Assembly: GCA_029204225.1 (NCBI GenBank)
Contig: CM055113.1
Span: forward strand, 24,424,357-24,488,356
DNA: 64,000 nt
Direction: 5' to 3'
Origin: Diphasiastrum complanatum
Taxonomy: Eukaryota > Streptophyta > Lycopodiopsida > Lycopodiales > Lycopodiaceae
The number at the start of each line of letters is the position of its first letter. The stretch's first letter is position 1. The translations under genes and the position numbers were made by a program. This document shows, one piece after another, positions 3,001 through 59,503 of this stretch. The notes under the pieces are model-generated. The model was not told the DNA's origin, did no database searches, and saw only the letters and a list, made by a program, of their open reading frames with translations.

Positions 3001-6000
3001 TAGTCCAATCTCCCCAAATGAAAAGAATGTTATTTAGCGATAGGCCAAGCCCGAACATTACCGTATCAGGGCGAGTGCCATGCTGATCAGTTTATGGGAT
3101 ATCAGTTCGTTTTGTTTTATGCATAAGTATGAATAGTTTTTAGCATATATATTGTTTATCGCTAAAAGGTATGGTGTGGACACATGTGCAGGTGTTAGAG
3201 CAAATCCATGTTATGCTAACCCTCGTGACTCTAGTTTCGAAAAACAAATCACGCACTACTGTCCATACTCCTGAGCAAATCTATGCTTTTTAGTCGTATC
3301 TCACCATGTTCTGATATGACAACTGAATGTGTTTTAAATTTTGCAAAAGCCATGATTGAATAAACTTGCGTTTATCAAGACTCCATATTCAACCCGTGGT
3401 GTTTATGACATTGTTTTGGATAGGTTACATATTATCGGTGGGGTTTTCGTGGTTTTTACAAGGTATCAGGGCAGATCCGTGCCATTCTAATACTTTTGTA
3501 AGAACCGTTCATCTTACGCAAATCCATGTTGTCTAAGATAATTCAAAGAAAAACCTTAGTACGGGACGACAAAGGTGTCATCATTACCAGAGTTGTTAAA
3601 TCGTTTACAAGTTGGTAGTATCTAAATAGGTAAAAAGAGACATATTTCAGCATTTAGAGTCATTACAAGTCATATATCCATATAAAAACACCTTCCCTTT
3701 GAGCGTAAGCGGTGTATGCAGAGTCTGAATTTTGTTGCGAGAACTCATACCTGGATGATCGCAGATGTGTTTTCTTGTGAGGATGCCATGTTACTCCTTC
3801 GAGTGCTCTTGCCTTCTTTAGAATCAAATCATTCATAACATTATTGTCAAATAACGTATAAAATCGAACTTAGTATATCGAAGAAAGCCTTTCACTTAAC
3901 AGCTTATATCAATTTGGGAGCTAGTGGTTTTATGTATATACCTATGCAGACGCTTATAGAATTATGGTCCGAAATCGAACCTAATCGAAAAAGAAAGTCG
4001 TAGTAATACTTGATGCTACAAGAAGCGCATGTTGTATCTATTAGTGATTGAACACTAGTATTCTCTTTGAAATAGAAACCAGTCAATAGCATGATAGCAA
4101 CCTGGCTAAAGCATGAGATATACTAAACAAAACCAAAATGTGCAGTTACCTTAGTTGTAACTCTTGTATGATAGAATGAAAATAGAGCTGATCCTTTTCT
4201 GGACATTGTATATTACCTTTCAGTATTCAGAAAACAACCGAACAGTCATGCTATCCTTTGAAGGATAGTAGTGCTTATTTTGTACTATAGTTAACAAGCA
4301 AGTTATCATCCTTAAATATATATCATAATGCGTTGATCACACAAGAGTATTTGTGGAGCAAGGAAGTGCCTCATCGCTAGTCATTTAGATCAAAGAAAAC
4401 TTCTGAAACTACACAAAGAATGTGACGCATGCCTATCACTATCATGTGGTAAGTATTGTGTGTGGAAGTCCATCGCGGACAGTGGACCATTTACATCCAT
4501 TTTTTCAAGCACAAAACTTGAGGAGGTCCATCGCTGGTCAACAGACCATACTTTGTCAAATAAACCACATTATCTTCCTTGCTCGGGACAGCGGACCAAT
4601 TCATACAAAAAAAATCCACACAAAGAGAGTGTGATCCCTTGTTGATCATTCAAAAAAGGTTTATACCATTCACATATCGTAAAGAGACGAAAGCAATGAT
4701 ATGAAATGAGACAAGCCACATACCGTAAATCAGAAAAGGATGATTTCAAGCCAGATAGGGCGCATTCCCTGCCATGAGTAGATCTCCAAACTTGCTTCCC
4801 ACCATATCGTAGAGAAGTCTCATTCAAAGACAGGTGATACATAGCAGTTCCGGAGGAAGCTTTGTGGAAGAGCCCTATTAACCAAATTTGGTGGAAAACT
4901 ATTTTTCGAAAAGTGCAATAAATGGTTGGGTTGGTAAAAAAAGAGACAACCCACCAACTGACCCGCCAATAGTGAATTTCTTAGGGGGCAGTTAGCTCCC
5001 TATAAGGGATAACTAACTGCCCACCATCAAACCATTAATATAATGTGGTAGATCATAGGACAAACCCGGAAATGCTTTTGTTAAAAGAAGTTTGTTAATG
5101 ATAAGGCAAAGTTTATCCCTCATAAAACCATTTTTTTGAAACGCGTTTAGCAAGATTGCTACCTCTTTTATAAAAGTATCTTGATTGTTGTAGCAATACA
5201 TTGCAGAAATGACTTGAGAAATAATCACTTTGTAGGAATTGTAAACTGGTCTATTGGAGGCCAGATGTATGTATTGTAAGTACTGAAAAGGTAAGTCTCT
5301 TGTTTTATCAAACTTGGAGAGTTGAGAAACACTTGTGTCTATGACCCATGTCTTAATAATAAGTCTCTCATTTATAAAAAGTTTCTAAGCTTGAAGAGCC
5401 CTTGGCAACCCTAACATGACCTAATGCATCCTTGATGAGAAAGGTGTATCATCTCAAATGAGAAGCAATCCTTTTGTTCGTTTTTATGAAATTTTTATTT
5501 TTAGTAGTTATGTCCCTAGAGGTTCACGCTAAGAAATCTATAGCCAAAACCCTCTCTGACTATGCTTGCCCAAGCACTATGGACCATTTGAATGGGGCTC
5601 ATGTTGAACAACAAATATGGAACTGTACATTATTAGCCTAAAAATCTCTCCCGTGGCCAGCAAGCCCCATGGTGGTGAAATGACTTGTTAGAAAAGGCCT
5701 AATTCACTGATTCAAGGTGTTTACTGAAACACATGTTGCCCAGCTAGCTAGCGGTTAACTTTCACTAATTTACCTTATTTGCAAAAACTGTCAAAGTGTT
5801 GCTGGTACTGAAGTGGTCAATTCTGATTTTAAATTTCTAGATGGCTGCTATTTAAATTTAGTTTAAAAAATTTTCACCTATAATAGAATGTTTCTACAAT
5901 GATTTCCTCGTGACTATGTCATCAAGTATTTCAAAAAAAATTGAGATCTGAATTTTTAGCACCTTTATGGAAAATTAGGTGGAAAGGTCTCTCTTCTATC

Positions 6001-7517: not shown

Positions 7518-9262
7518 TTACTCATCAAACTCCGCTGCGTGCTCTAATAGATAATTTGCAGCTAGTTGCTCATTTTTATCACATGCAAGAAAGGCTTCTA
7601 TCACAAGAGCTCGATCAAATCCCATTGCTTCAAGCTGCAAAGAAAAAAGCATATCAGAGTAAAAATGCCAAACAAAAGATCGCGAGAAAATTTTACATCA
7701 TCCTAAGCAAAGAGTTGTACCCGATCAATGGCTTCCCGCTCTTCTGGTGTCACATTAATAGTTTGTGGCATTGCTTCACCTATATTTCCAAGCAAATCCC
7801 TGCAATCCTCATTTTCAGAAGATAATTCGAAACAATTTTTGATGGTCCAATTGTATAAAAATTGTACAAAGCCAACATTCTTATTACCCAATAATCGAGT
7901 CACAGAATTATACTGTTACACTAAAAATTCCCAAGGCAATCTCTGCAAAACCAGTACCATACTTGAAAAAGCTTGCTGTGAAGATTAAAAGTAGAAACAT
8001 ACTGTGCTTACCCTTCAGCACCTTCAGCCACTGGTTCATTGATAAGACGAAGAAATTCTGCCTGATTTTCATTAATAAGTCGCAAAAGTTGAGGATTCTG
8101 CTTTCCAAGCTCCTGAAGCATGGGCTGGCTCATGCATGTTACAAAAAGGGTAAGCACAACTAAATTTATGTGGCTGCCTCCATATCACCATCCGAATATT
8201 AGATAAGACCATCAGAAATTTAATCACAACTAACCTGCAGAATTTGGGGATTGACCTGGACCATGGTACGCAGTGCTTGAAACTGCCAGAGAGATGAAAG
8301 CATTAGGGTAAGTCTAAAATTTCTTCAGCTTTCAGAGCTTCACACATATTGCAACTGCAAGCTAGTCAGTGATTTTCAGGAAATTTTGTAGCTTAGTTGA
8401 TTGTCTAATATTTCCTACTGGCTATCAAAAGAATATGCACAGAGCTGCATCAACAATAAACTAAAACCTACTTCAACTTTCCAATCTGCAAACTAGTTAC
8501 AAGTAAAAACTGCAAAAACACTCTCAACCTGACAGCACTTTTGTTAAAACAATCTTTTACAAATGGTTCATGTTGAGTTATTGGTCATTTACCTGGGGAT
8601 TGTTTCGCAGGAAATCCAAGGTACCAACAGCACCTCCGGCACCTGCTATTCCTGGCATACCCTACATTCACCCTAACGAATCCATACATTTTGCTATACA
8701 AAGCTAATAATTTAAAAGTAGCAAAAGAGCTCGTTCAGGACACCTGATAACAATATAATTTTATGCATCTCTATGTTGGACTCCAAAACAGGAACATCTA
8801 TGCCTAGAAGCATATGAAACCAACCTGAGGAAATAAGTCCAAAGGGACAGCATTAGGTCCACCCAGAGGAGCGGCCTGAGCACCAACAGCAGGGACAACT
8901 GGAACTTCGCCTATTTCAGCAGAAGCTGGAACTGCAGGTCGAGAGACTGGGATAGCCACCTCAGCAGACTCTGGAATGCCCTGAACCAAACAGTTTCTTG
9001 AACTCATACTCTCTTTTTCTACCTCAGTTTGATTTCACTACAAAATAACTCCATTAAAGCTTAGAGGCTAATTGCAATTCATACACTGTAAAGATATTCT
9101 ACTGCGCGTTCAGGGTTGTTGTACGCAGCACGAAGGGCACGAACAATTGTATCCCTGTCCCAACTTCCACTGCCTAACTCCATTAATTGTTGAATGGTTT
9201 GCTCAAGAACAGAACCTGCAACAACATTTGATGCAGCATGGCCATATATATCACCAGTAGAT
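7518..9262 (-). CDS. RAD23: RAD23 exons 6-12: UBA1, XPC-binding and UBA2 domains
   Basis: Seven closely spaced exons. Exon 6 (9085-9262) holds UBA1. Exon 7 (8825-8980) is a Pro/Ala/Val-rich linker. Exons 8-10 (8593-8661, 8235-8282, 8012-8124) hold the XPC-binding/STI1-like repeat with NPQ motifs. Exon 11 (7721-7799) carries the linker into UBA2. Exon 12 (7518-7634) completes UBA2 and ends EHAAEFDE before TAA, the usual RAD23 C-terminus. Intron sizes are 104, 163, 310, 110, 212 and 86 bp. A (GT)n(GA)n microsatellite at 9,381-9,456 lies just inside the long intron 5. Confidence 0.95.
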
Positions 9263-10363: not shown

Positions 10364-10461
10364 ATCACAACAAACTGAACAAAAACCATGTTGAATCATT
10401 TTGAACCATACTGAACCTTAAATGAAACATTTTTCAACCATATAGAATTGTTTTTCAAACA

Positions 10462-12101: not shown

Positions 12102-15100
12102 ATAAACCATAAAACCGAAGTTACCGAACTAAAACCACAAAGAACAGTATTGAATCATGACACTGTTGTGAATAGGATCATCATAATATATAATATCGGG
12201 CCACATGGCACCAAAATGGGGTACAATGATGTTCCATGAACGTAATGAAAACTATACAACTAGGACTCGTCGGAGTCATGGTAATTAAAATCCTCCGAGT
12301 CTGTGCCTGTCTGCTGATCCCAAGGGTCTGCAGATGAATCAGAACCGGAGGGAAGCCTGCCGAAGAAGAGGGACGAGAAGGACCCGCTGTCACTGACCCA
12401 ACATGCTGATGCTCATGGATCTGAACCAAGCCCTGCTGCTACGGATGGAACTGGAGTGGCCTCGCCTGGATGATGCACAACACCTAAACCCTGCCCAAAA
12501 CGTGTTGTACTAGGCCATGCACCTGTACCATGCCCTGCCCGTGATGTACTAGGCCCTGCACCTGTACCATGCCTTGCTCGTAATGTACTAGGCCCTGCAC
12601 CCATAGTAGGCCCGCCTGTGAGCTCTGCCTGTGAGCCTATAGTTGCTCCTGCTACCTGTCCCTGTCTACAACCCTGTGATATGGCATCGGGCCCAAACAT
12701 ACTAGACAACCTCTACATCTACTCGTCGAAAATCCCCAACTGGCCCTCTGACCTGTAGTAAGTGAGCCCTAACCCTGGTGAGTGATCCTGTGAAGTGACC
12801 ACCACAATGCAAAAATCTCCATCTGCGGGTTCCAAAGCCATGGTGTGTACCCACATCCCCCTTGGTAAGCTCAACCTCGGCCCAAAGGCCTCGGCCCCGC
12901 ACCGGCATCGTGTCAACACAAAATCAAGCCTGCAAACAAAAATAAGCAAGCAAACGTTCAGTAGAAGAAAATACACTGCATTGAACAACAATACCAGGCT
13001 ATAATAGAGCTCAAAACATTAGAGCATACATCACAATGATTCCAATTCATACATCATAGCAAGTGCCAAAAAACACATGGGATTAGGGCGTGGGATAGAA
13101 TTATTTTAGTATGAGCGATAACGGGCAGTTGTTGTCGGCGTGGGAGTCCGTGCAGGCGTAAAGGAGTGCAGTGTAGGCCTAAACCATGCCCCAGGCAGAT
13201 GCTTGCACGATGCTCCACACCTAAACCCTAAAAAACATGGAATTAGTGTTAGAATTAATGGTTAATTGTAGAGGCCAGCCTGCGTGCTATAAGGCCTATT
13301 TCTATTTTTAGTATAGGTACCTAAGTTAGTACCAATTTTGCTAGAATAGTATAGAAATCTATTTTAACCAAGTTAGCATAGATTTCTATTGTTAAGACTT
13401 CATAATTAGCATTTCAATTGCTATTGTAGTAGAATAGCTTTTGCTTTTCATTGTGCACAGCCTCTATAAGAGTAGATGGGCGCCCACCTCCATTGTTATC
13501 TCAGTTTCCAGCTTATGAAGCATAGCTTCTTGCAGTCTCTCTTCTTCTTCAGCTTGTGGTTGATGTTTTGTGTGAGTACTAATAAGATTAGTCTACTCCG
13601 ATTAGAGAATCTCTTCGATTCTAACATGGTATCAGAGCCATCTCGTTAAGATCGGGATCTACGGAAGAAGGAGATCAGCGCTGCAGGTTTTACTGGTGGA
13701 GATCGCATCTAGTGGAGGTGCTATTTGGTGAAGGTTGTATCTGGTGGAGGCGTCATCCTGTGCAGATTTTTCTGGTGGAGGACACATATGGTGCAGGTTA
13801 GCTTCTGGACAGGCAGCATCTGAGGGCGGCACATCTGGTGCATGTCACAAAGCTACAGGTTACAGCAGGTGCAGGCAACATCTGAGGGCGGTAGCAGCTG
13901 GGGACAGTTAATATCTGAGGCAACAACGACCAGACAGATCAAGACAGGTAGTACTTGAGGCAGCAAAGACCAGGACAGGTCTGATTCAGGGCAGGTGCTA
14001 ACCGGACAGTTCTAATCTGAGGCAGTAGAGACCAGACCAGGTCTAATTCAGGGCAAGTGCTAACTGGACAGGCAGTGAGCAGATTTCTACAAGCAAGAAG
14101 AACTGAGGAAGGCAGAATCTGGGACAAGCAGAGACCAAATAGACAAGATCTGAACAAGTGATATCTAGTGAAGGCAATAATTGTACAGGTAGTTGTCCTC
14201 AAAAATTGTTGCATGCAATTATATTCTTAGTGGAAAGCCCATCATTTTTGTAAAAAGATGGGCAGTCTGAATGAATCTGTTCTTCCATAATCAAGCAAGT
14301 TAGATGGATCTAACTACAGCTTGTGGAAGTTCAAACTTCAGAATATCCTTCAGGACAAAGATTATTGGGAAATTGTCATGGGACAAGAGGTGATGGCTCA
14401 CGGTCTCAATGATCAAGATAGAAGGGCATTTGAGAAACGGGTGCAACGTGCGCATCATATTATCAACTTATCTGTGAAGGATAAGGTGATTCCGTTGATC
14501 AGGAATGCAATTGGGCCTAAGGATGCATGGGATATCCTTAAGAACACATATGAAACGGTAAGTAAGTCTCGAGCGTTGTTCTTGAACAATAAGCTTCATA
14601 CCTTGAAAATGGAATCACAAGAATCCATTACGGATTTTATTACCAGGGTGAAAGATCTAAGAGATCAGTTGTCTTCTATAGGGGAAATTGTACTTGATAA
14701 TACTCTAGTACAAATTGTTTTGAATAGCTTACCATTACAATATCAGAACTTTGTTATGACACTAAGTTTGAGGGAGAGATCGCCGACATTTGATGAGCTC
14801 AATGGTTTGCTACTTCAAGAGGAATTACGAAGACAAAACTTGATGTCTAGAGAAGATTTCAAGGCACTGGGATTCTTTTCCAAGAATCAAGGTAAGAAGG
14901 GCAACAATAAAGGAGGCAAAAAGGATCAAAAGCAAGGAGGGAAGGACAATACGGAAAAAGGAGATAGTTCCAAATCTAATCCAAAGAGAAATGGCAGTGG
15001 TAATTTTTGTGGCAAGTATGGTCATTTTGCATTTGAGTGCAGGAAAAAGAAGGCTATCCAGGACAAGAAGAAGCAGTCAGGCAACTTCATTGAAGACGAA

Positions 15101-18100
15101 GACAAAAGTAAAGTTGTGGGATGCTATGAGTTATTCTCAACTTCAACATCAGAGATCTCTGAAGATTGTTGGTATATTGATTCTGGAGCAACGCAACATA
15201 TGACATCACATCGTGAGTGGTTCACACAATTTGATGACACTGGTGTAAATTCACACGTCAAACTTGGAGCCAATTCTTCTTACGATATCAAAGGTAGAGG
15301 TACAATGAGAGTACATTTACCTTCATGGAATATAGGAGAAATTAAGAATGTTCTCTATGTTCCAGGCTTAAAAAAGAATTTACTTTCAGTTTCTGCCATA
15401 GCTAAACAGAATATGAAAGTTGAGTTTGACGATCAAAAGTGGCTCATCAAAGACAAAAACAAAGGTTACAAAGTTGTGGTCAAAGGATTATTGGAAGGTC
15501 GACTTTACAAACTTGATGCAACTACATTGGATCATCAGGTTTGTGCAGCTTCTGATAGTATAGAGAGCAAGATATGGCATGAAAGGTTTGGACATCTGAA
15601 CTATAAAAGCTTACAGGTTCTAAAAGACAATAATATGGTAATAGGATTACCTAATATTGTATCTTCAGGAAAAATTTGTGAAGGATGTGTTATGGGCAAG
15701 CATCATCGTATGCAGTTTCTCAAGGATGGAGCATATAGAGCCAAGGAAATCTTGGAGCTTGTTCATACAGACTTATGCGGTTCCATGCAAACTGAGTCTA
15801 TAGGGGGAGCATCCTACTTCATGATATTTGTGGATGATTTTTCCAGGAAGGTATGGATATACTTGCTTAAGTATAAGAGTCAAGCTTTTAAGTTCTTTAC
15901 TCAGTTCAAATCACTTGTTGAGAAGCAGACAGGAAAGCAAATCAAGATTCTACGTTCAGATAAGGGAGGTGAATTTATATCTACAGAGTTCCAGGAATTC
16001 TACAAAGAACATGGAATCAAGAGACAATTTGCTTCAACTGATACGCAAAAGACAGCCAACAAAACCACCTAAATCACTGTTTAATGAGCAAAAAGCCGTA
16101 AAAACCAGCATTCACTCTAATTGATCCCGTTGCTAACAGAAAAGTGTCCCTAATGAAGTAAACGGCAACACAAATGAACTGAAAATCGAAAATTTACTTC
16201 CTAAAAACCAATATGAAGTGTCTTAACATCGAACCAATTGTATACCTGGTAGTGCACTTACCACACAACCGATTACAATTCAAAAAAGGAAATCAACAAG
16301 AAGAACAATCCGAACTTTTCACCGTTCGTTGCATACTCCATTGAATTCTCAAAAAAGTGTTAAGATTCTATATCACACAATGGAAAAATCCCCACAATTC
16401 GAGATTCCTCTTGAACACAAATCAATGGCAAAAACGTGCTCAGAATTGGCTCTGATACCAATATAAAGTCCTCAATCCAAGGATCCTATTCTAAGCATGC
16501 CAATCACAAGCAACACAAGGGAACCTAATGGTGGACAAACCAACCCAACCAAACCTAGATCGAACGGATCTAGCCCCCAAGCTATGGATCAATTGCTCAG
16601 AGAGGAATGAGGCATCACACCAGCAGCATCCTTCCACCGGTCATGCTATCAAGCATACACTAGTGAGAGCCCAATAGGTATACTTATACCCTCCAAGGCC
16701 CATGCACCACTAGTAATACACTGTGACACCTCACTGGACAACTCTGCAGCCTATCTAGGCCACGTCATCCAATTCCCCAATGAATCACTAATAGACCCAT
16801 ACAAATCCACCATCAAGTGTTTAGGCCTACAACCATTAATTATGACCATGTACACATAAGGGCCCCAATTCCCTTATAGTCACAACTAACTTACGGTTAG
16901 TTGGTCTACTGATCCCTAGCGTGGACATGCTACCCGAAACCAGTCATCGGCATGACAGTTATGGTCTTCAACACTTCTCGAGCATTCATGCAGCGACAGG
17001 AGTTTACTTTTGATGGACAGGTTCTAGAGGTGGTCCCTTCCTATACATACCTGGGGATCCTTTTCTCGGGTCCTACGTTTAGCATGAGACAGGCAGCTAC
17101 CACTTGACTAGGGAAGAGACATGCCTCCCTTGTTCAGCTAGAGCGATTTTGTTTCCGGAAGTCCATCCAGGATGCTCGCAATAAGAGTCGCCTCTTTGAT
17201 ACAATTGTCACCCCTACGGCTCTATATGCGGCAGAGGCATGGTGTACAGGTCTCCCCTCTTCACACCGGGCCAGTCTTTCACGAATACAGACCGCCATGC
17301 TAGCTCAGCTAATTCGAGCGAAGCCTTCTGTTCCACATGAGATTCTCCTGGCCGCGTTTGTAGTTCCACCTATACAGATCGAGGCAGCTCTTCAGCTCAT
17401 TACCTATATACAGAGGGTACAGGCGTTACCAGAGATAGACAGACGATACATACAGATTGCACTATCCTCCTCACAGTGTCTTCATGATCAGGGCCACAGA
17501 TTATCATGGTTCTCTCAGGCATCTCACCTCTTACTTGAGTCATTTATTGGTAAATCCATCACAAAGCTTCCCTCAGGCACCCATCAGTATATCAGACGAT
17601 TTCTCTATCGAGCATATCTAGAGTGGACTTGGCATAACCAGTCAGGGGTTAAGCCAGCTTTCTACCGGACCCATTTTATGGAGCTGGATGCATCAGGGAC
17701 CCCAGTCATGCCACGCTACTTGGATTCGGGATTGACATGCCTACCACTCTACACTCTCTCATAGCCTATGAGGACCCACGGTGTGTCGCTCTGATGGTAC
17801 GCGAGATGTTCATACTACGGAGAGATGTATACGGGACATCCCGGCATTTTACCTTTCAATCATTGATTACTTCCTTCTTTACTAGGTGGAGATCTCGTGA
17901 TTTAGTGCCTGAGGATGATGATATCCGCTTACATGCTCATAGAGATCAAAAGGTTCGAAACTGGTATCTATGGAATCTATGGCCGTAGGAGAAGCTGTAG
18001 CTTATGATAGTCACAAGACAACTCGTGTTATGACTTCGCATCAGTCTCAATCTCAGTCATAGGCCAATGCCAATCCTTAAAATAAACAATGGGCTTGGTC

Positions 18101-51926: not shown

Positions 51927-52024
51927 TCAACACATAGTATTGCCTTTGCAAGGCAAGGCCAAAAACACATATACCTCAACACATAGTATTGCCTTTGCAA
52001 GGCAAAGCCAAATATAGGGACATT
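51927..52024 (+). promoter_or_regulatory. Direct repeat with an internal palindrome upstream of DAHP synthase
   Basis: A block starting TCAACACATAGTATTGCC occurs at 51,927 and again at 51,976 (period 49 bp). Each copy contains TGCCTTTGCAAGGCA, a 6-bp inverted repeat with a 3-base centre. It lies 100-190 bp upstream of the DAHP synthase ATG, so it is probably in the core promoter or 5' leader. A regulatory role is inferred. Confidence 0.5.
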
Positions 52025-52115
52025 GGGGAGGATTCAAGATTTAGGGTTTAGAGATCAATAAATGAATTGGAATTGGAATTGAAATTGTTGGTGTGTCGTT
52101 GGAGCGCATAGAGCG

Positions 52116-53477
52116 ATGGCCAGTGCTGCGGGATCAGCAGCAGCGATCGGTTCAGTCTGGCTGGCATTTAAAGGCACTAAATCTCAGAGATTTTGCAGCA
52201 GCAGCGCTGGAGGGAGGCCAGCATCGCAGCCTGGAGCTGCAATCTATGGAATGCACAATCATGCAGAGCCCATCAAAGTTGCAGAGCCAAGAATTGATGC
52301 TAGTGAGAGTGAAGGAAGTTGGAATCGCAGCAGCTGGAGATCCAGAAAGGCTGTGCAGCTGCCAGATTATCCTGATGCAGAGCAGCTCAATTCTGTCCTT
52401 GAGACGATTGAGAGTTTCCCTCCCCTTGTATTTGCAGGGGAAGCGCGCAGCTTGGAGGACAGGCTTGCGGAAGCGGCTCTGGGCAGGGCTTTTTTATTGC
52501 AAGGAGGCGATTGCGCTGAGAGCTTCAAAGAATTTAGTGCAAACAACATTCGTGATACGTTCAGAGTCCTTTTGCAGATGAGCGTGGTGCTCATGTTCGG
52601 AGGACAGATGCCCGTGATCAAGGTTGCTAGATTACGTGGAATTCTTCATTAATCAGGATGGTTGATACTTTTTTTCGCAATTGTGATATGGATTGGTTTT
52701 GGATATGAAAAAAGTTGCTGTAATTTTTTGTATGTGGTTGGAGCAGGTTGGCCGAATGGCAGGTCAATTTGCAAAGCCGAGATCAGAGCATTTTGAAGTG
52801 GTAAATGGTGTCAAACTCCCGAGCTACCGTGGTGATAATGTGAACGGCGATGCCTTTGACAGCGAATCTCGTATTCCTGATCCCCAGCGCATGGTGAGAT
52901 CCTATTGCCAAGCTGCAGCAACTCTAAACTTATTGCGTGCATTCGCCACAGGAGGCTATGCAGCTATGCAGCGGGTCACTCAGTGGAACTTGGATTTTAC
53001 CTTGCACAGTGAACAGGGTGGAAGGTACGAAACCAAAGTCGTCTTCAATGTCAAATTCCTTCCACATATTCTGTTTCTCCTGTAACTTCTAATAACCATT
53101 CTAGTGGGTTTATTTTCATTCTCTTGTCTAACAGCAAAGCATTTTACTCTGGTCTTCTGGCAAGGATAGAACAGCTCACAAGAACTTGAAAGTGAAGCAG
53201 GTATTTGGAGCTGGCAAACCGGGTAGATGAAGCTTTAGGCTTCATGGCCGCAAGTGGACTGACAAAGGATCACCCCATCATGACCACCACAGAATTCTGG
53301 ACATCCCATGAGTGCTTACTACTTCCTTTTGAGCAGGCTTTGACCCGACAAGACTCTACCACAGGTCTTTGGTATGATTGCTCTGCTCATCTGCTGTGGC
53401 TGGGAGAGCGCACACGCCAATTAGACGGTGCGCACATCGAATTCCTTCGTGGCATTGCAAATCCTTTAGGAGTGAAG
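52116..53477 (+). CDS. DHS: DAHP synthase exons 1-3
   Basis: Exon 1 (52,116-52,622, 169 codons) holds the transit peptide and the GGDCAESF motif. Exon 2 (52,747-53,024) runs from VGRMAGQ to EQGG. Exon 3 (53,201-53,477) runs from [14 protein letters not shown] to NPLGVK. Introns 1 and 2 are 124 and 176 bp. Intron 3 begins at 53,478, and the LTR element starts only 26 bp after this donor. Confidence 0.96.
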
Positions 53478-56400
53478 GTACGTATCGTATCGCATCACGT
53501 TCCTGATGGAATCAGAGTGTTCAGAAACTGATATAGCTTGCTGAAATAGTGCGATCTGTAGGCATTCATTAAACATAAACCAACGCAAAAGCTCTCACTC
53601 TCTTTATCTCTCTCAGTTCAAGAAACGTAGGATACAATGTTCCCAAAATGGAAGGTGTCATTCTGCTATTCCAGCGTGCTGTCTTATACAATGGGCTCCT
53701 ACTTAAAAGATCTAATTACAAGAAATCTTAATTAATCCTAATCATATTTATCCACTAAGCCGCTATCTTTATGATCAGGGTCATCTATTTACATGCCCTT
53801 CCTCGCATTGACTACTTGCCAAGTAGCCGTGTGACCCCATACGTCCTATCAATGTATTGGGCACAAATCCCAACAATCTCCCAACTAACCAATACATTTA
53901 AAAGATACTCATGATGTAAGACGAGTCACAAAATATATTATCATCGAGCTATGGCCTTTTGTGACTGCCCACTCAGCCATTTTCACATCTTCTACTCTGT
54001 CAGTCACTCAACCACTTTCATTGGCCTTCAACACAGTGTTTTGCAAGTCTTCTGATCTTCAACAACTACTACATGCTTTGGAGTAGACAGTCCATGATCT
54101 TTCTTACATGCTTTGGAGTAGACAGTCCATGATCTTTCTTCATTGCATTCTTCAGACTACCATAGATTCCAATTTCAGTCTTTATCAATTCTTTGAATGA
54201 TTGGGCACCAACAGGAAAAATCCTGAAGACCTTCAGGGCAAGCTCATTTCCATCAGCGAATACCCATTGATGACATCAAAGAGACGAACCACTAACACCA
54301 GCTTTGCCATCAATCCATGCACAAGATTAACCATTTTAGCTCCAGTCATTTTTCCAACTTTCCCAGGCAAGGGAATGAGGTCAGATCTTTTAGCCATAGC
54401 TCTGAACCATTGATTTGCCCTCTCGGCCTCCTTTCCTCCACTATACACTCGAAGAAAAACTGACGCAACTGGTGCCATCAAGGATGTGACTGGGTCAGCG
54501 AATCTTCCAAATGCATCTGAAACTATGCACTCACAGCGCATGTAGTATCCAACACCCTCTAACTCGGGCTTGAATATTATGTAACTTTCAACAAGTTCAG
54601 CATCTGCAACAATACCTGAGACAACCTTCTTCGATATTCACAGGAGTGAACATGAGTTCGATCCGAGAACGAGAACCGACTTCTTCATTGCAGTATTAGC
54701 CTCCTGCTAATGTCCCAACAGTATCATTGACCAGAGTAATGACTTGCATATCTAACTTATGTTGGCCCCTTGCAGCTTGCAACTCTTCGACAATATATCT
54801 TCCAACAGATTTAGCTACAAGCCACATGCCCCTTAAATTGGTAGCCATAACTTTGTTCCATTCATCATCTTCAAGCTCTAAAGATGACTTCACAGTTCCT
54901 CTGAAGCCTGTGTTGTTAACCAGGATATCAATCTTCCCAAAAGCGTTCCAAGCATTCTCCACCAAGCATCCATGCTTACCTCACTGTTACTCACATCCAG
55001 CTTCAAGATTGCTACTTTTCCTGCCATCTGCCTCTGCTGTTGCTGCTCACATGCCAAGGAATCAGTGGAAGTAGAAAGAGACTGGATGTGTTGGAGGAGA
55101 GAATGCAAGAGCTGCACCCTGCGAGCAGCAATAACGACATGGCAGCCATGGGTGGCCAAGGCTAGTGAGAACATCCTTCCAAGACCACCTGTGGCAAGCA
55201 CCACTTTCCCTTTTAACCAAACATCATCGTCTTCCTCCATCCCCATTGACATGCTCTCTCTTCTTTTGTCCTTCCCTTTCCTTGCTTCCACCTAACAGTA
55301 TTTTAGAATTGGTGGAAATTTGTTCACAGGAATTGAGAAAGTGAACCCATGTTCACCTTGTCATTCAAGGAGCGGGTGAAAACCCTCACCTTTCGTAGCC
55401 AACAAACTTGCCAGCTCCGCAATATTGAGCCTAAACACATTCTCATTCTTTTTCTTGTCACAATATAAGATCTTGGACCAATCTGAAAGAGTTACTGGTG
55501 TAGACTGATGCCTCATTTGCGTGCTCGTGCCCAAAGATTGAGCTACCTGAGGCATCATCTGTGAGGTAATGAGCATGTGTGCACTGTCACGGATGCCACC
55601 CTGTGCCAACAAGATGCCAAAATCATGATTAAGCTGAGACAGCACAGAAAGACCACGAGCTAGGTCTCCATCACCAAAAGAATCTTGGTCTCTGACCAGC
55701 CACCGCCTGTGACGACTCACCACTAGTGTCTGCTTCTCTCCTTCCGCTTTCTTCTCCTAAAGCAACATGAATAGCTGCAAGATGCTGGTTTTCTGTTAGA
55801 AGCCTTTGAATCTCTGCATGCAGCATAGCAAGCTGTTGCTTAATTAGAGTAGGGGAAGGTCCTAAGCCTGTCTGAGGTCCAAGCATTCCTGGTCCAAGCT
55901 GTGCATCATAAGTACCAAGGCCCACCCTTTTTCTTCATCCTCAGCAGTGATGCTCACGATCCACAATATCAATCTGCCCACGAAAGCCTCCTTTGCAGTA
56001 GTAAAGGTTGCGATCCTCAAGCTTTCTTAAGATATCTGACCACAAAAGGCCCCTTCACAGCTGCAGAAACAGCGGAAGAAGAAAAGGTTGTGATCCTCGA
56101 TGGAGGCACAAACCCTTTGCCTTTGATTCGCATGCCCCTGATTCCCCGCGACACGTTCTTGATGATCAGACTCACTCCACCAAAGCTCCCACTACATCCA
56201 AAGACAGTGTATGTACAAGAAGATTTTCATAACGATCCTTTCTTGCAGTGACCTTCTTCAAATCATTATTCCACAATGGTTACCATCTCAAGCCATTCCA
56301 AAACACAGAAACAAGCACCAAGCCTCACCTCACCTAGTGACTCTCTCCAGAAGTATGAGCCTCCAGTATCCCACTACTTCCCCTTGAGTTCTAACTAGTA

Positions 56401-58288
56401 AGTACCCTGTCTGAGCTTTCTCAGTGCAGCCCTTGCTGCACACCTCCGCTTGTTCCAACTCTCAATGTCCTCCTTGACATGCAAGATGCAGCCTCCATGC
56501 TGTCACAGTCAAGCACCCAGTGTTGTCTCTCTCTCAGAACCTCTTGTTCTGCTCTTCAAGATGCAGCCCTTGCTACACACCTTGTTCCAACTCTCAATGC
56601 CCTCCTTGACATTCAAGATGCAGCCTCCATGTTGCGACAATCAAGCACCCAGTGCTATCTCTCTCTCAGAACTTCTTGTTCTGCTCTTCAAGCAACCAAT
56701 GCTTGCTTCAAAATATTGCTACAGACACCACTGCTGGCACTGCAGATCGAATTCCTTCAAGGACAATACAACACTTCAGCATGCATTGAAGAACAAGACC
56801 CTATACTTGCTCCAGCATCCCAATCTTCTTCCAACAACTTGGAACATCCAAAAAAAAAAATTGCCGCTCCACGGAACTTGAATCTCCCAATCAGTCTTCA
56901 TTGGTGTGTGGGCCCATAACCATTGACGGAATCAGAGTGCTCAGAAACTGATACAGCTTGCTGAAGTAGTGCGATCTGTAGGCATTCATTAAACATAAAC
57001 CAAAATAGACAGAACGCAACAGCTCTCACTCTCTCTATCTCTCTCAGTTCAAGAAACGTAGGAGACAATGTTCCCAAAATGGAAGGTGTCATTCTGCTAT
57101 TCCAGCGTGCTGTCTTATACAATGGGCTCCTACTTAAAAGATCTAATTGCAAGAAATCTTAATTAATCCTAATCATATTTATCCACTAAGCCGCTATCTT
57201 TATGATCAGGGTCATCTATTTACATGCCCTTCCTCGCATTGACTCCTTGCCAAGTAGCCGTGTGACCCCATACGTCCTATCAATGTATTGGGTTCAAATC
57301 CCAACGGTTCCTTATTTCCAAGGGTTATCAAGGAAGAATTTATAGTTGAACATCTCCGGGCCCTTAGAATGGCTGCTGATTTTTCCTGCAGCAAAAAGAG
57401 ATATGAAGATATCTAATACCTGATGAATGTAGGATTTCCTGAGCTCCCTTTCATATTTCCTTCCTTTTAGTTCTTTTGTGCAATTTCCAGTAACCTACAC
57501 TTCTGATTCTTTTTCTTTGAGCAACAGGAACTTCATTTTATTGCTCCATCTGGTTTTCAACAGTTTCTGAACTGCAACCGCCTCTTTTGGCAAACATTGA
57601 TTTCTCTGTCTTTACTGTGCCGCAGGTGAGTGATAAGATGGATCCCAGTGAACTGGTTAAAGTCTGTAAGATTTTGAATCCGGAAAACAAACCTGGCAGA
57701 TTGACAATCATTGTTCGAATGGGGGCAGATATTCTTCGAAAAAAGTTGCCCCATCTCATTCGTGCTGTGCGGCAATCAGGTATCATCGTGACATGGGTCA
57801 GTGATCCCATGCATGGTAATACAATCAAAACCATCAGTGGAATCAAAACTCGATCTTTCGATGCCATTCGAGTAAGTTTTAATACAGTGTTCAGGTGATC
57901 TATGCTTTTATTTACATCATTTTTTTCAAGCTGTTATAACTGATTCAAAGAAACCACATACTTTGGTTGAGAAAAACATATATGTAAGCTGTTGATAAAT
58001 CTCATGGGAACTTCTTGGCAGGCTGAGCTTCGTGCATTTTTTGATGTGCACCAACACGAAGGCAGTCACCCTGGTGGAGTTCATTTGGAAATGACAGGTC
58101 AGAATGTGACTGAATGCATTGGTGGATCCAAGTTGGTCAGTGTGGATGATCTAAGTTCTCGCTACCACACCCATTGTGATCCAAGACTTAATGCCTCCCA
58201 ATCTTTGGAGCTGGCTTTTGTAATTGCAGGACGCCTGAGGGAAAGGCACCTCGACAAAAACGTATCTGGAATGCTTCAATTGCTTTGA
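52116..58288 (+). CDS. DHS: Class II DAHP synthase, plastid, 5 exons
   Basis: 3-deoxy-D-arabino-heptulosonate-7-phosphate synthase condenses phosphoenolpyruvate and erythrose 4-phosphate, the first step of the shikimate pathway. Exons: 52116-52622, 52747-53024, 53201-53477, 57626-57871 and 58022-58288. Introns are GT-AG, phases agree (0, 2, 0, 0) and the product is 524 codons, close to other plant enzymes. Residues 1 to about 60 are Ala/Ser/Arg-rich and suit a transit peptide. Class II signatures: [11 protein letters not shown] (about 127-137), [75 protein letters not shown]-like [21 protein letters not shown] (about 460) and [17 protein letters not shown]. The metal-binding Cys, His, Glu and Asp positions appear kept. 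A 3.8-kb LTR element sits in intron 3. The start is the first ATG giving the transit-peptide-like N-terminus. Confidence 0.96.
53504..53875 (-). repeat. LTR (3' LTR in element orientation)
   Basis: 372 bp. On the minus strand it starts TGTTGGGATTTG and ends GATTCCATCA, with TG...CA ends. It is closely similar to 56,924-57,306, which has an 11-bp insertion and a changed terminal base. Confidence 0.88.
54066..54142. repeat. 38-bp direct duplication
   Basis: The unit ACATGCTTTGGAGTAGACAG followed by TCCATGATCTTTCTT occurs twice in a row near the 3' end of the host-fragment element. Confidence 0.85.
54190..54600 (-). pseudogene. Unrecognised open fragment inside the LTR element
   Basis: An open minus-strand stretch reads [60 protein letters not shown] and so on. 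Codon-like composition and length over 120 codons suggest another coding fragment of host origin, but I do not recognise the family. Confidence 0.45.
54700..54775 (-). pseudogene. Hexokinase-like motif fused after the dehydrogenase piece
   Basis: In frame with the second dehydrogenase part, the minus strand goes on [17 protein letters not shown] and then a stop. [12 protein letters not shown] is a well-known plant hexokinase motif (the catalytic Asp lies in NDT). The abrupt change from SDR to hexokinase marks a chimeric junction near 54,770. Confidence 0.6.
54780..55291 (-). pseudogene. Short-chain dehydrogenase/reductase fragment inside the LTR element
   Basis: From 55,291 the minus strand reads [28 protein letters not shown] and [13 protein letters not shown], the SDR cofactor-binding half. 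The usual TGxxxGxG turn is damaged (TGGLGRM). After a one-base frame change near 54,965 it continues [36 protein letters not shown] and [11 protein letters not shown]. The order and spacing match plant SDR proteins, without visible introns over about 500 bp. The catalytic Ser and YxxxK are not reached. It looks like a processed, truncated copy. Confidence 0.75.
55671..55925 (-). pseudogene. FLX-like protein fragment inside the LTR element
   Basis: An open stretch of 84 codons includes [20 protein letters not shown] and HVALGEESG. This matches the start of the coiled-coil region of plant FLX/FLX-like proteins, which act in flowering-time control. The fragment lacks the rest of the coiled coil. 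The following frame (55,361-55,723) is open for 120 codons but I do not recognise it. Confidence 0.6.
56426..56690. repeat. 132-bp tandem duplication in the element leader
   Basis: Two units of about 132 bp, each with TGCAGCCCTTGCT.CACACC, CTTGTTCCAACTCTCAATG and AAGATGCAGCCTCCATG. They differ by a few bases. They lie near the 5' end of the host-fragment element. Confidence 0.8.
56908..56921 (-). other. Primer site matching the initiator tRNA-Met anticodon arm
   Basis: On the minus strand GGTTATGGGCCCAC lies two bases after the LTR. Its complement, GTGGGCCCATAACC, equals part of the anticodon stem-loop of plant initiator tRNA-Met (from established tRNA sequence, recalled). Drosophila copia and Ty5 are primed this way, by a cleaved half-tRNA. 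The usual 3'-end site TGGTATCAGAGC is absent. Confidence 0.65.
56924..57306 (-). repeat. LTR (5' LTR in element orientation)
   Basis: 383 bp. It ends in CA on the minus strand; the outer TG has become CG. The GTTCC target duplication follows at 57,307. Confidence 0.88.
57626..58288 (+). CDS. DHS: DAHP synthase exons 4 and 5
   Basis: Exon 4 (57,626-57,871, 82 codons) starts [13 protein letters not shown] and ends FDAIR. Exon 5 (58,022-58,288) starts [15 protein letters not shown] and ends GMLQLL before TGA. The intron between them is 150 bp. Exon 4 joins in phase to NPLGVK of exon 3 across the 4.1-kb intron, as in other plant DAHP synthases. Confidence 0.96.
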
Positions 58289-58772
58289 ACATTTTGAGCT
58301 GATGCCCTCTTATTCTATCAGTAGCAGTGTGGGGTGCAGTCCTGTGTCCGTAAATATGTCGAGTCCTAGCCTGTGATGTATTGTATATACATTCTATGGA
58401 AGGACCTGAGATAGTTGGTTAAGTTGAGTGTAATCGTATTTGTGTCTTTCAAGTCTTCAAGGTGAGCTATCTGTGAACGTGATGAGCCACTAGCAGCTCC
58501 TGCAGTAGCTGAATTGGTTGATTCGTTCATTACCATCTTTAAAGCTAGCAAAATATAATGAATGAGCTCCTCATTCCTTTTTTTCAAACCATGGGTTGCA
58601 TTTTGACTTATGATTCTATTGCAATTGTGCTGTCATTTGGAAACTATCACAATTTGATCAATCCATGGGATGCCAATCTCCTTGTAGATAGCACAATCTA
58701 CTCATGGGTGCATGTACTCCTACACATTCTTTTTAGTGATGCACTGATCCTTCTTAGTGCAAGCTTGGTCAT

Positions 58773-59503
58773 TATTGTACTCTCCTCTGTTCACATTGTT
58801 GATAAAAATTTCCAACCAGTAAATTGGCCTTAAAATTATGGCAAGGCTGTTAGGCCGAGCCATCACTAAACACGTGTTGAACTGGGTCTAAAGAAAAAAG
58901 ACCTTGCCCAAGCATAAAGAATGGTGAGGAAAATCCCTCTTTTTAACGCTGAAATTTTTGGCAAGTCCCAATTTTGCATTTTATGGGTCATATTTTCCCT
59001 TTTCAAACTTTTTTATGAACCTTTCATGAGCATAGTGTGTTTGTGAAATTGTCTTCATAGACTTAGATTCTATAATATGCCAAAAAATATATGAAGTCAC
59101 TTTTTATTTATTTATTGTACTCTCCTCTGTTCACATTGTTGATAAAAAGGGCTGGGCTGGACGATGCCGCATAAATTGAAGATGACATCATATGTTGGTG
59201 TAGTGATTTGAAAGTATTCCGAAATGACCTTTCCAACTTGTAAATTGGCCTTAAAATTATGGCAAGGCTGTTAGGCCGAGCCATCACTAAACACGTGTTG
59301 AACTGGGTCTAAAGGTCACTAAAAAGACCTTGCCCAAGGCTAAAAAATGGTGAGGAAAATCCCTCTTTAATGCTGAAATTTTTGGCAAGTCCCAATTTTG
59401 CATTTTGTGGGTCATATTCTTCATGAGCATAGTGTCCTTGTGAAATTGTCTTCATAGACTTAGATTCTTTAATATGCCAAAAAAATATATGAAGTCACTT
59501 TTG
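58773..59503. repeat. Tandem duplication of about 340-390 bp
   Basis: The block from TATTGTACTCTCCTCTGTTC to TATATGAAGTCACTTTT occurs at about 58,773-59,107 and again at 59,113-59,503. The second copy has an extra segment of about 85 bp after GATAAAAA. A 91-codon frame running into the first copy (58,558-58,833) is probably chance. Confidence 0.85.

Follow-up and report, generated by a model that had tools for sequence, protein, structure and literature searches.

The window analysed here, a 64,000-nucleotide stretch of Diphasiastrum complanatum DNA (C22:24424357-24488356 of a 1.745-Gb assembly, against which the genome searches were run), carries a class-II DAHP synthase gene on its plus strand and, antisense within an intron of this gene, a complete LTR element of 3,803 bp (window 53504-57306, minus strand; structure read from the sequence). 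A first, sequence-only reading had placed the insertion in a DAHP synthase intron, and five out of five flanking exon stretches matched the class-II DAHP synthase family PF01474. The features are given below in window coordinates and in element direction, followed by the host gene.

57307..57311, no strand: target site duplication (TSD) copy adjoining the 5' LTR, GTTCC on the plus strand, equal to GGAAC in element direction
56924..57306, minus: 5' LTR, 383 bp
56908..56921, minus: primer-binding site (PBS), matching the anticodon arm of initiator tRNA-Met (complement of nt 26-39) over 14 nt
55922..56923, minus: leader, interior positions 1-1002, common to sister copies
56449..56560 and 56581..56692, minus: two tandem 112-bp units in the leader
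55749..55921, minus: FLX-like piece; donor exon C13:25701128-25701300, 92%
55447..55734, minus: S40/senescence-regulator piece; donor locus C4:69648478-69648762, 80%
54800..55295, minus: short-chain dehydrogenase (SDR) piece; donor gene on C6, whose exons 1 and 2 meet exactly between 54899 and 54898
54705..54818, minus: hexokinase piece (limits of the Pfam match), overlapping the SDR end, with the switch at about 54800
54356..54577, minus: AIR9 piece (A9 repeat region); two C15 donor exons, without the intron
54120..54251, minus: enolase piece (limits of the Pfam match)
53876..53886, minus: polypurine tract (PPT), AGTTGGGAGAT in the window copy, AAGTGGGAGAT at 7 other loci
53504..53875, minus: 3' LTR, 372 bp
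53499..53503, no strand: TSD copy adjoining the 3' LTR
52083..58285, plus: class-II DAHP synthase gene, host context outside the element
52083..52649, 52687..53082, 53196..53528, 57521..57895 and 57971..58285, plus: DAHP synthase exon stretches

The LTR pair and the GTTCC duplication had already been recognized from the letters alone, and both stand at the positions listed. The LTRs have the termini TG..CA, except that base 1 of the 5' LTR is C. Paired LTRs and a TSD identify an LTR retrotransposon, one LTR end base having changed. The two LTRs differ by 11 substitutions over 371 aligned sites (7 transitions and 4 transversions, K2P 0.030) and by one 11-bp indel. A PBS lies 3' of the 5' LTR and a PPT lies 5' of the 3' LTR, and both are kept in other copies.

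The interior was said to be free of gag and pol, and this description held. Pfam detected no retroelement family in nine ORF stretches of the element, and tblastn with ten gag, pol and LINE query stretches gave no match in the interior; the copia control stretch of L042 was matched. (L numbers denote stretches of the genome read for comparison; 20 of them, each spanning about 10 kb near an LTR match, were all compared, and frames were listed for 17.) With the same ten queries, no match was found in the interiors read of L049, L037 and L039, and L034 was matched. On these searches, an ordinary pol-bearing element is rejected, as is an autonomous LTR retrotransposon with its own gag-pol, and at 3,803 bp, including LTRs of 383 and 372 bp, the element exceeds the size of a TRIM.

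Several other observations concern the surroundings of the element. Positions 52004-58805 of the window recur in inverted orientation about 87 kb away (C22:24385581-24392382; L002 and L004) with 99.8-99.9% identity, flanks included; this repeat is either a recent segmental duplication or an assembly effect and does not count as a second insertion. A Copia gag-integrase coding stretch with 593 open codons lies at 14291-16069. Long AG/CT tracts, which give Leu-Ser repeats when translated, are numerous in the window (e.g. at 10426, 12024, 29155, 31045 and 43094). Scanning the window with Rfam and for tRNAs yielded nothing informative.

In the place of gag-pol, the element carries pieces of host genes, in the order FLX-like, S40, SDR, hexokinase, AIR9 and enolase. 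All recognized pieces are in sense orientation, i.e. on the minus strand, as previously stated. The FLX-like, SDR and hexokinase pieces of the sequence-only reading are corroborated by Pfam, genome and protein matches, its two further open fragments correspond to the S40 and AIR9 pieces, and the enolase piece is an addition. Donor loci were located for four of the pieces on four chromosomes: C13 (FLX-like), C4 (S40), C6 (SDR) and C15 (AIR9).

The FLX-like piece has its best DNA match outside the family on C13, with further matches on C18 (84%) and C7 (80%), and both of its ends fall inside the donor exon. The C13 donor matches the annotated protein O6H91_13G044200 (100%); the name FLX rests on a protein search (at least 78 proteins listed, some named FLX-like), and no Pfam family bears it. 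The S40 donor, with 62% identity in the protein search and an open frame of 269 aa, matches the annotated protein O6H91_04G131100 (100% over 42% of the query); its Pfam score of 29.2 bits is above the cut-off of 22, and that of the element is below it (17.6 bits). In the DNA search, SDR exons 1 and 2 are 88% and 97% identical to the C6 donor, and adh_short is above the Pfam cut-off in the second SDR stretch of the element. Hexokinase_1 (27.3 bits versus a cut-off of 24.3) and Enolase_C (27.3 versus 21.5) also exceed their cut-offs in the element. The AIR9 donor exons were found by protein search (67% and 66%); against a Pfam cut-off of 27.5 bits, the element scores 13.2 and the donor exons 26.2, just below, and 14.1. 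PDB searches with the AIR9 and S40 pieces gave nothing informative.

The candidate enolase donors are 19 matches on C6, C21 and C22, all weak (48-49% identity, E 0.002-0.005). These 19 enolase-like exons, with nearly equal scores, lie at C6:56.7-57.2 Mb, C21:36.4-37.2 Mb and C22:32.0-32.5 Mb (L057, L058) and form an expansion. Partial LTR-like matches also occur in the C6 and C22 regions.

In the C6 gene of SDR, exon 1 ends in ..TTCAGAG followed by GTAAAATT, and ..TGATTTCAG stands directly before exon 2. Across the junction, the element has ..TTCAGAGGAACTG.., an exact exon-exon join at GT..AG ends, and the donor intron of 13,264 bp is absent. For AIR9, GTTTG follows the end of the matched donor exon, and about 1.26 kb separates it from the next one matched; the element is continuous here, and the intron is missing. 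The AIR9 piece is also without at least 13 residues encoded by the second donor exon (by eye), indicating an internal deletion. Where the element is continuous in its enolase piece, the weakly matching C21 and C22 exons are preceded by an acceptor-like stretch, which is only suggestive of a lost intron; the FLX-like match is confined to one exon and is therefore silent on introns.

Missing donor introns, predicted if processed transcripts were captured, are thus found for SDR and AIR9, and the splice-site join of the one together with the absent intron of the other indicates that spliced RNA was copied. This agrees with the earlier proposal that cellular transcripts were copied in. Such intron-free host-gene pieces inside LTRs resemble those of the maize element Bs1, and not the genomic pieces of Helitrons and Pack-MULEs, in which introns are commonly kept. 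Capture of a single intron-bearing genomic locus, named beforehand as a finding that would overturn the reading, is ruled out by the separate donors and the missing introns.

Further joints lie within donor exons. At 54800, within exon 2, the SDR piece parts from its donor and continues into hexokinase, in keeping with a chimeric SDR-to-hexokinase junction that had been placed near 54,770. The end of the leader is marked near interior position 1002 by L033, which shares the leader to that point and then continues with other sequence. The unequal identities of the two SDR exons count against a single capture, which would need uneven later change; exon 1 agrees with the donor at 98% over its final 57 bases.

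A search for sister copies with the LTR, as had been suggested, gave at least 42 matches in the genome at E ≤0.001 (40 of 68 candidates scored), and the interior gave at least 73 (40 of 57 candidates scored). The SDR-hexokinase-AIR9 chain of the window is present on C22, at C20:25177657-25178644 (85%) and at C23:24879289-24879736 (86%), and the C20 copy has SDR exon 1 at C20:25171996-25172380 (84%). Over 99 bases of SDR exon 2, the window and C20 copies share one difference from the donor, two are found only in the window and eight only in C20; the shared difference is compatible with one capture, without being proof of it. Intron retention was considered for the C20 copy and rejected: its first SDR match extends beyond the exon junction (2025/2026) to interior position 2032, and in L031 the donor splice acceptor is absent from the bases 5' of exon 2. 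A nested insertion appears to fit the split better.

Other copies have the same ends and a different middle cargo, in support of the "transducing family" that the first reading had envisaged. In one type, the leader of the window element is followed by a BTB/POZ piece (PF00651), which scores 29.8 bits in L049, above the cut-off, and 15.4 bits in L047, below it, and which is seen by eye in L037, L039 and L042. A piece of ATP synthase delta (PF02823) is present in L049 and L043 and, by eye, in L039; none was recognized in L037. L049 and L037 end in AIR9-enolase, and in L048 the leader is joined directly to the enolase piece. The remaining stretches are copies with one end read and solo or broken LTRs. 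L039 and L043 are duplicates (99.4% alike over 9.3 kb), and L035 and L036, with identical match lengths, probably are as well. In total, six host genes are recognized in the window element and eight across the copies read.

Some sister loci have peculiarities of their own. L049 has no 5' LTR in place and has instead an inverted copy of its own 3' end (96%; 3968-4417 and 7660-8017). The middle of L049 (6139-7080) was searched with Pfam, NCBIfam and a protein search, and its sole match was the annotated protein O6H91_04G018100, which is itself an ORF of the sister element L043 (L043:2530-3339; C4:10.16 Mb) and contains the ATP-synthase-delta piece. Direct repeats of 1.2 kb, 94-96% identical, flank the copies in L039 (217-1418 and 7474-8692), L043 and L038, and look like LTRs of a larger element; since L039 and L043 are 99.4% alike, they are uninformative as to order.

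The ends of the element point to the kind of enzyme that may have copied it. The PBS, GGTTATGGGCCCAC, starts two bases past the 5' LTR and pairs with nt 26-39 of what we take to be the plant initiator tRNA-Met; this tRNA query was found with 100% identity over 71 nt at 9 places in the genome. Among 21 sequences scanned, the 13-nt core of the PBS is exact in the window and at 5 loci and differs by a single base in a further 4, and the PPT form AAGTGGGAGATTGTTGG is exact at 7 loci, the window PPT having two mismatches to this common form. Such a half-tRNA-Met PBS is a property of Ty1/copia elements, in some lineages only. Priming by half of tRNA-Met is described for Drosophila copia and yeast Ty5 (PMC5371799), and in plants half-tRNA PBSs are, in the passages of PMC6317226 that treat them, confined to Ty1/copia, at about 2% of elements. 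Because of this restriction, we infer a putative helper of the Ty1/copia type. In L034, the LTR and leader (92%) are followed by a copia RT in the same direction, with no LTR between; this locus is broken, no 3' end was recognized in it, and it may be either a deleted relative with copia pol or another capture.

The family retains its LTRs, the PBS-bearing leader and the PPT; in the place of gag-pol, the window element has sense pieces of several unlinked host genes, at least two of them spliced, and other copies differ in their middle cargo. We consider it very probable that this is a non-autonomous clubmoss LTR family whose multi-gene spliced cargo was acquired from RNA, with a copia helper and by template jumps. 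Under this scheme, a Ty1/copia helper would supply the proteins that package the element RNA and copy it, with priming by half of the initiator tRNA-Met. During minus-strand synthesis, the polymerase would repeatedly jump to co-packaged spliced cellular mRNAs and back or, alternatively, between sister RNAs, by which cargo would be added or swapped. The composite would then be mobile as a single unit, and the window copy would have inserted antisense into the DAHP synthase intron. Template jumping is deduced from the joints, of which the one at 54800 and the two at the ends of the FLX piece fall within donor exons, as template jumps predict. A broader reading, which we put forward tentatively and rate as a little less probable than its opposite, is that the family, a non-autonomous lineage of copia type, continually collects spliced host mRNAs: between fixed ends, its middle would repeatedly gain and swap cDNA pieces of unlinked genes by template jumping.

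Reverse transcription by a LINE could also produce such chimeras, if template jumping between mRNAs generated processed pseudogenes that later came to lie inside an LTR element and were carried by it. Fused multi-transcript pseudogenes made in this way are described in Magnaporthe (PMC2104539), and LINE coding stretches are present in L037, with others seen by eye in the window. However, by eye there are no poly(A) runs between the pieces and no piece end coincides with an mRNA 3' end, and a repeated change of cargo while the ends stay fixed is better explained by copying within the element than by a LINE origin, which we regard as improbable. Somewhat less probable still is capture at the DNA level, in which Helitrons, Pack-MULEs or break repair would have placed genomic segments from several genes in an old LTR element. 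Elements of the Helitron and Pack-MULE type do hold many gene pieces in plants (PMC13317346), and DNA repair may also leave joints inside exons, but the SDR intron lost exactly at GT..AG largely refutes this origin, and the loss of the AIR9 intron, the single direction of the recognized pieces and the recurrence of the chain elsewhere in the genome, bounded by the same LTR-type ends, all argue against it.

The cargo itself looks like a passenger, unlike a conserved protein function, as pairwise dN/dS values among sister copies, calculated on the open frames as they stand, are near 1. They amount to 0.91, 1.22 and 0.99 among L049, L038 and L041 and to 0.76-1.16 in the other 7 of the 10 pairs that leave out the window copy; the 5 pairs that include it, which align poorly, gave 0.67-0.77. 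Selection on the cargo is rejected with less force on this basis, given the few copies and the partly poor alignments. A working chimeric gene, its pieces kept as a selected protein, is the least credible origin and highly improbable, since the long AIR9-enolase frames that persist in L049, L038 and L041 (248, 262 and 235 aa) and the annotation of O6H91_04G018100 as a gene are opposed by dN/dS values of 0.76-1.22 among the sister copies (10 pairs) and by window pieces that lie in different frames, with stops.

The copied and carried pieces invite comparison with Bs1, which keeps a gag-like part; both Bs1 and the window element are LTR elements with several host-gene pieces. Bs1 holds pieces of three host genes (PMC13317346) and captured exons only (PMC4717578), whereas the clubmoss element has six recognized pieces, sister copies with a differing middle and no gag found. 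The soybean TRIM GmaRetroS15 is likewise a small, non-autonomous LTR element; it has 5-bp TSDs and carries only exon sequence from three host genes (PMC4717578). The gene-carrying TRIMs described there measure 1,172-1,449 bp, against a TRIM mean of 685 bp (PMC4717578); compared with these, the clubmoss element is longer (3,803 bp, LTRs of about 380 bp), contains pieces of more genes and has an exchangeable middle. The gene-carrying LTR elements of maize, rice and sorghum form a further comparison group, and none of those in a maize survey is given more than one gene in the relevant part of that source (PMC2774510). By its PBS type, the anticodon half of initiator tRNA-Met, the element resembles Drosophila copia, yeast Ty5 and the elements Osser, Bryco and Gymco-II (PMC6317226, PMC5371799). 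The club-moss copia group Lyco stands outside the half-tRNA-primed groups listed in that part of the same source (PMC6317226), and no polyprotein by which to name a lineage was found in the clubmoss family.

LTR capture of host-gene pieces is thus already known, with at most three genes per element in the published examples compared, as the parts of these sources dealing with them describe it. No earlier report of the clubmoss family was among the matches listed in literature searches on gene capture, LTR elements, lycophytes and Diphasiastrum, which mostly covered papers outside subscription. We regard a real, RNA-made, multi-gene mosaic within a mobile family as confirmed. For annotation, it means that an ORF of a sister copy (O6H91_04G018100) has been counted as a gene. 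With six pieces in one element, eight across the copies read and a middle that varies between fixed ends, the order, rate and joints of retroelement-driven exon shuffling would be directly readable. If the collector reading is true, the family would provide a natural record of the mRNAs that enter plant retrotransposon particles and a route to multi-gene exon shuffling.
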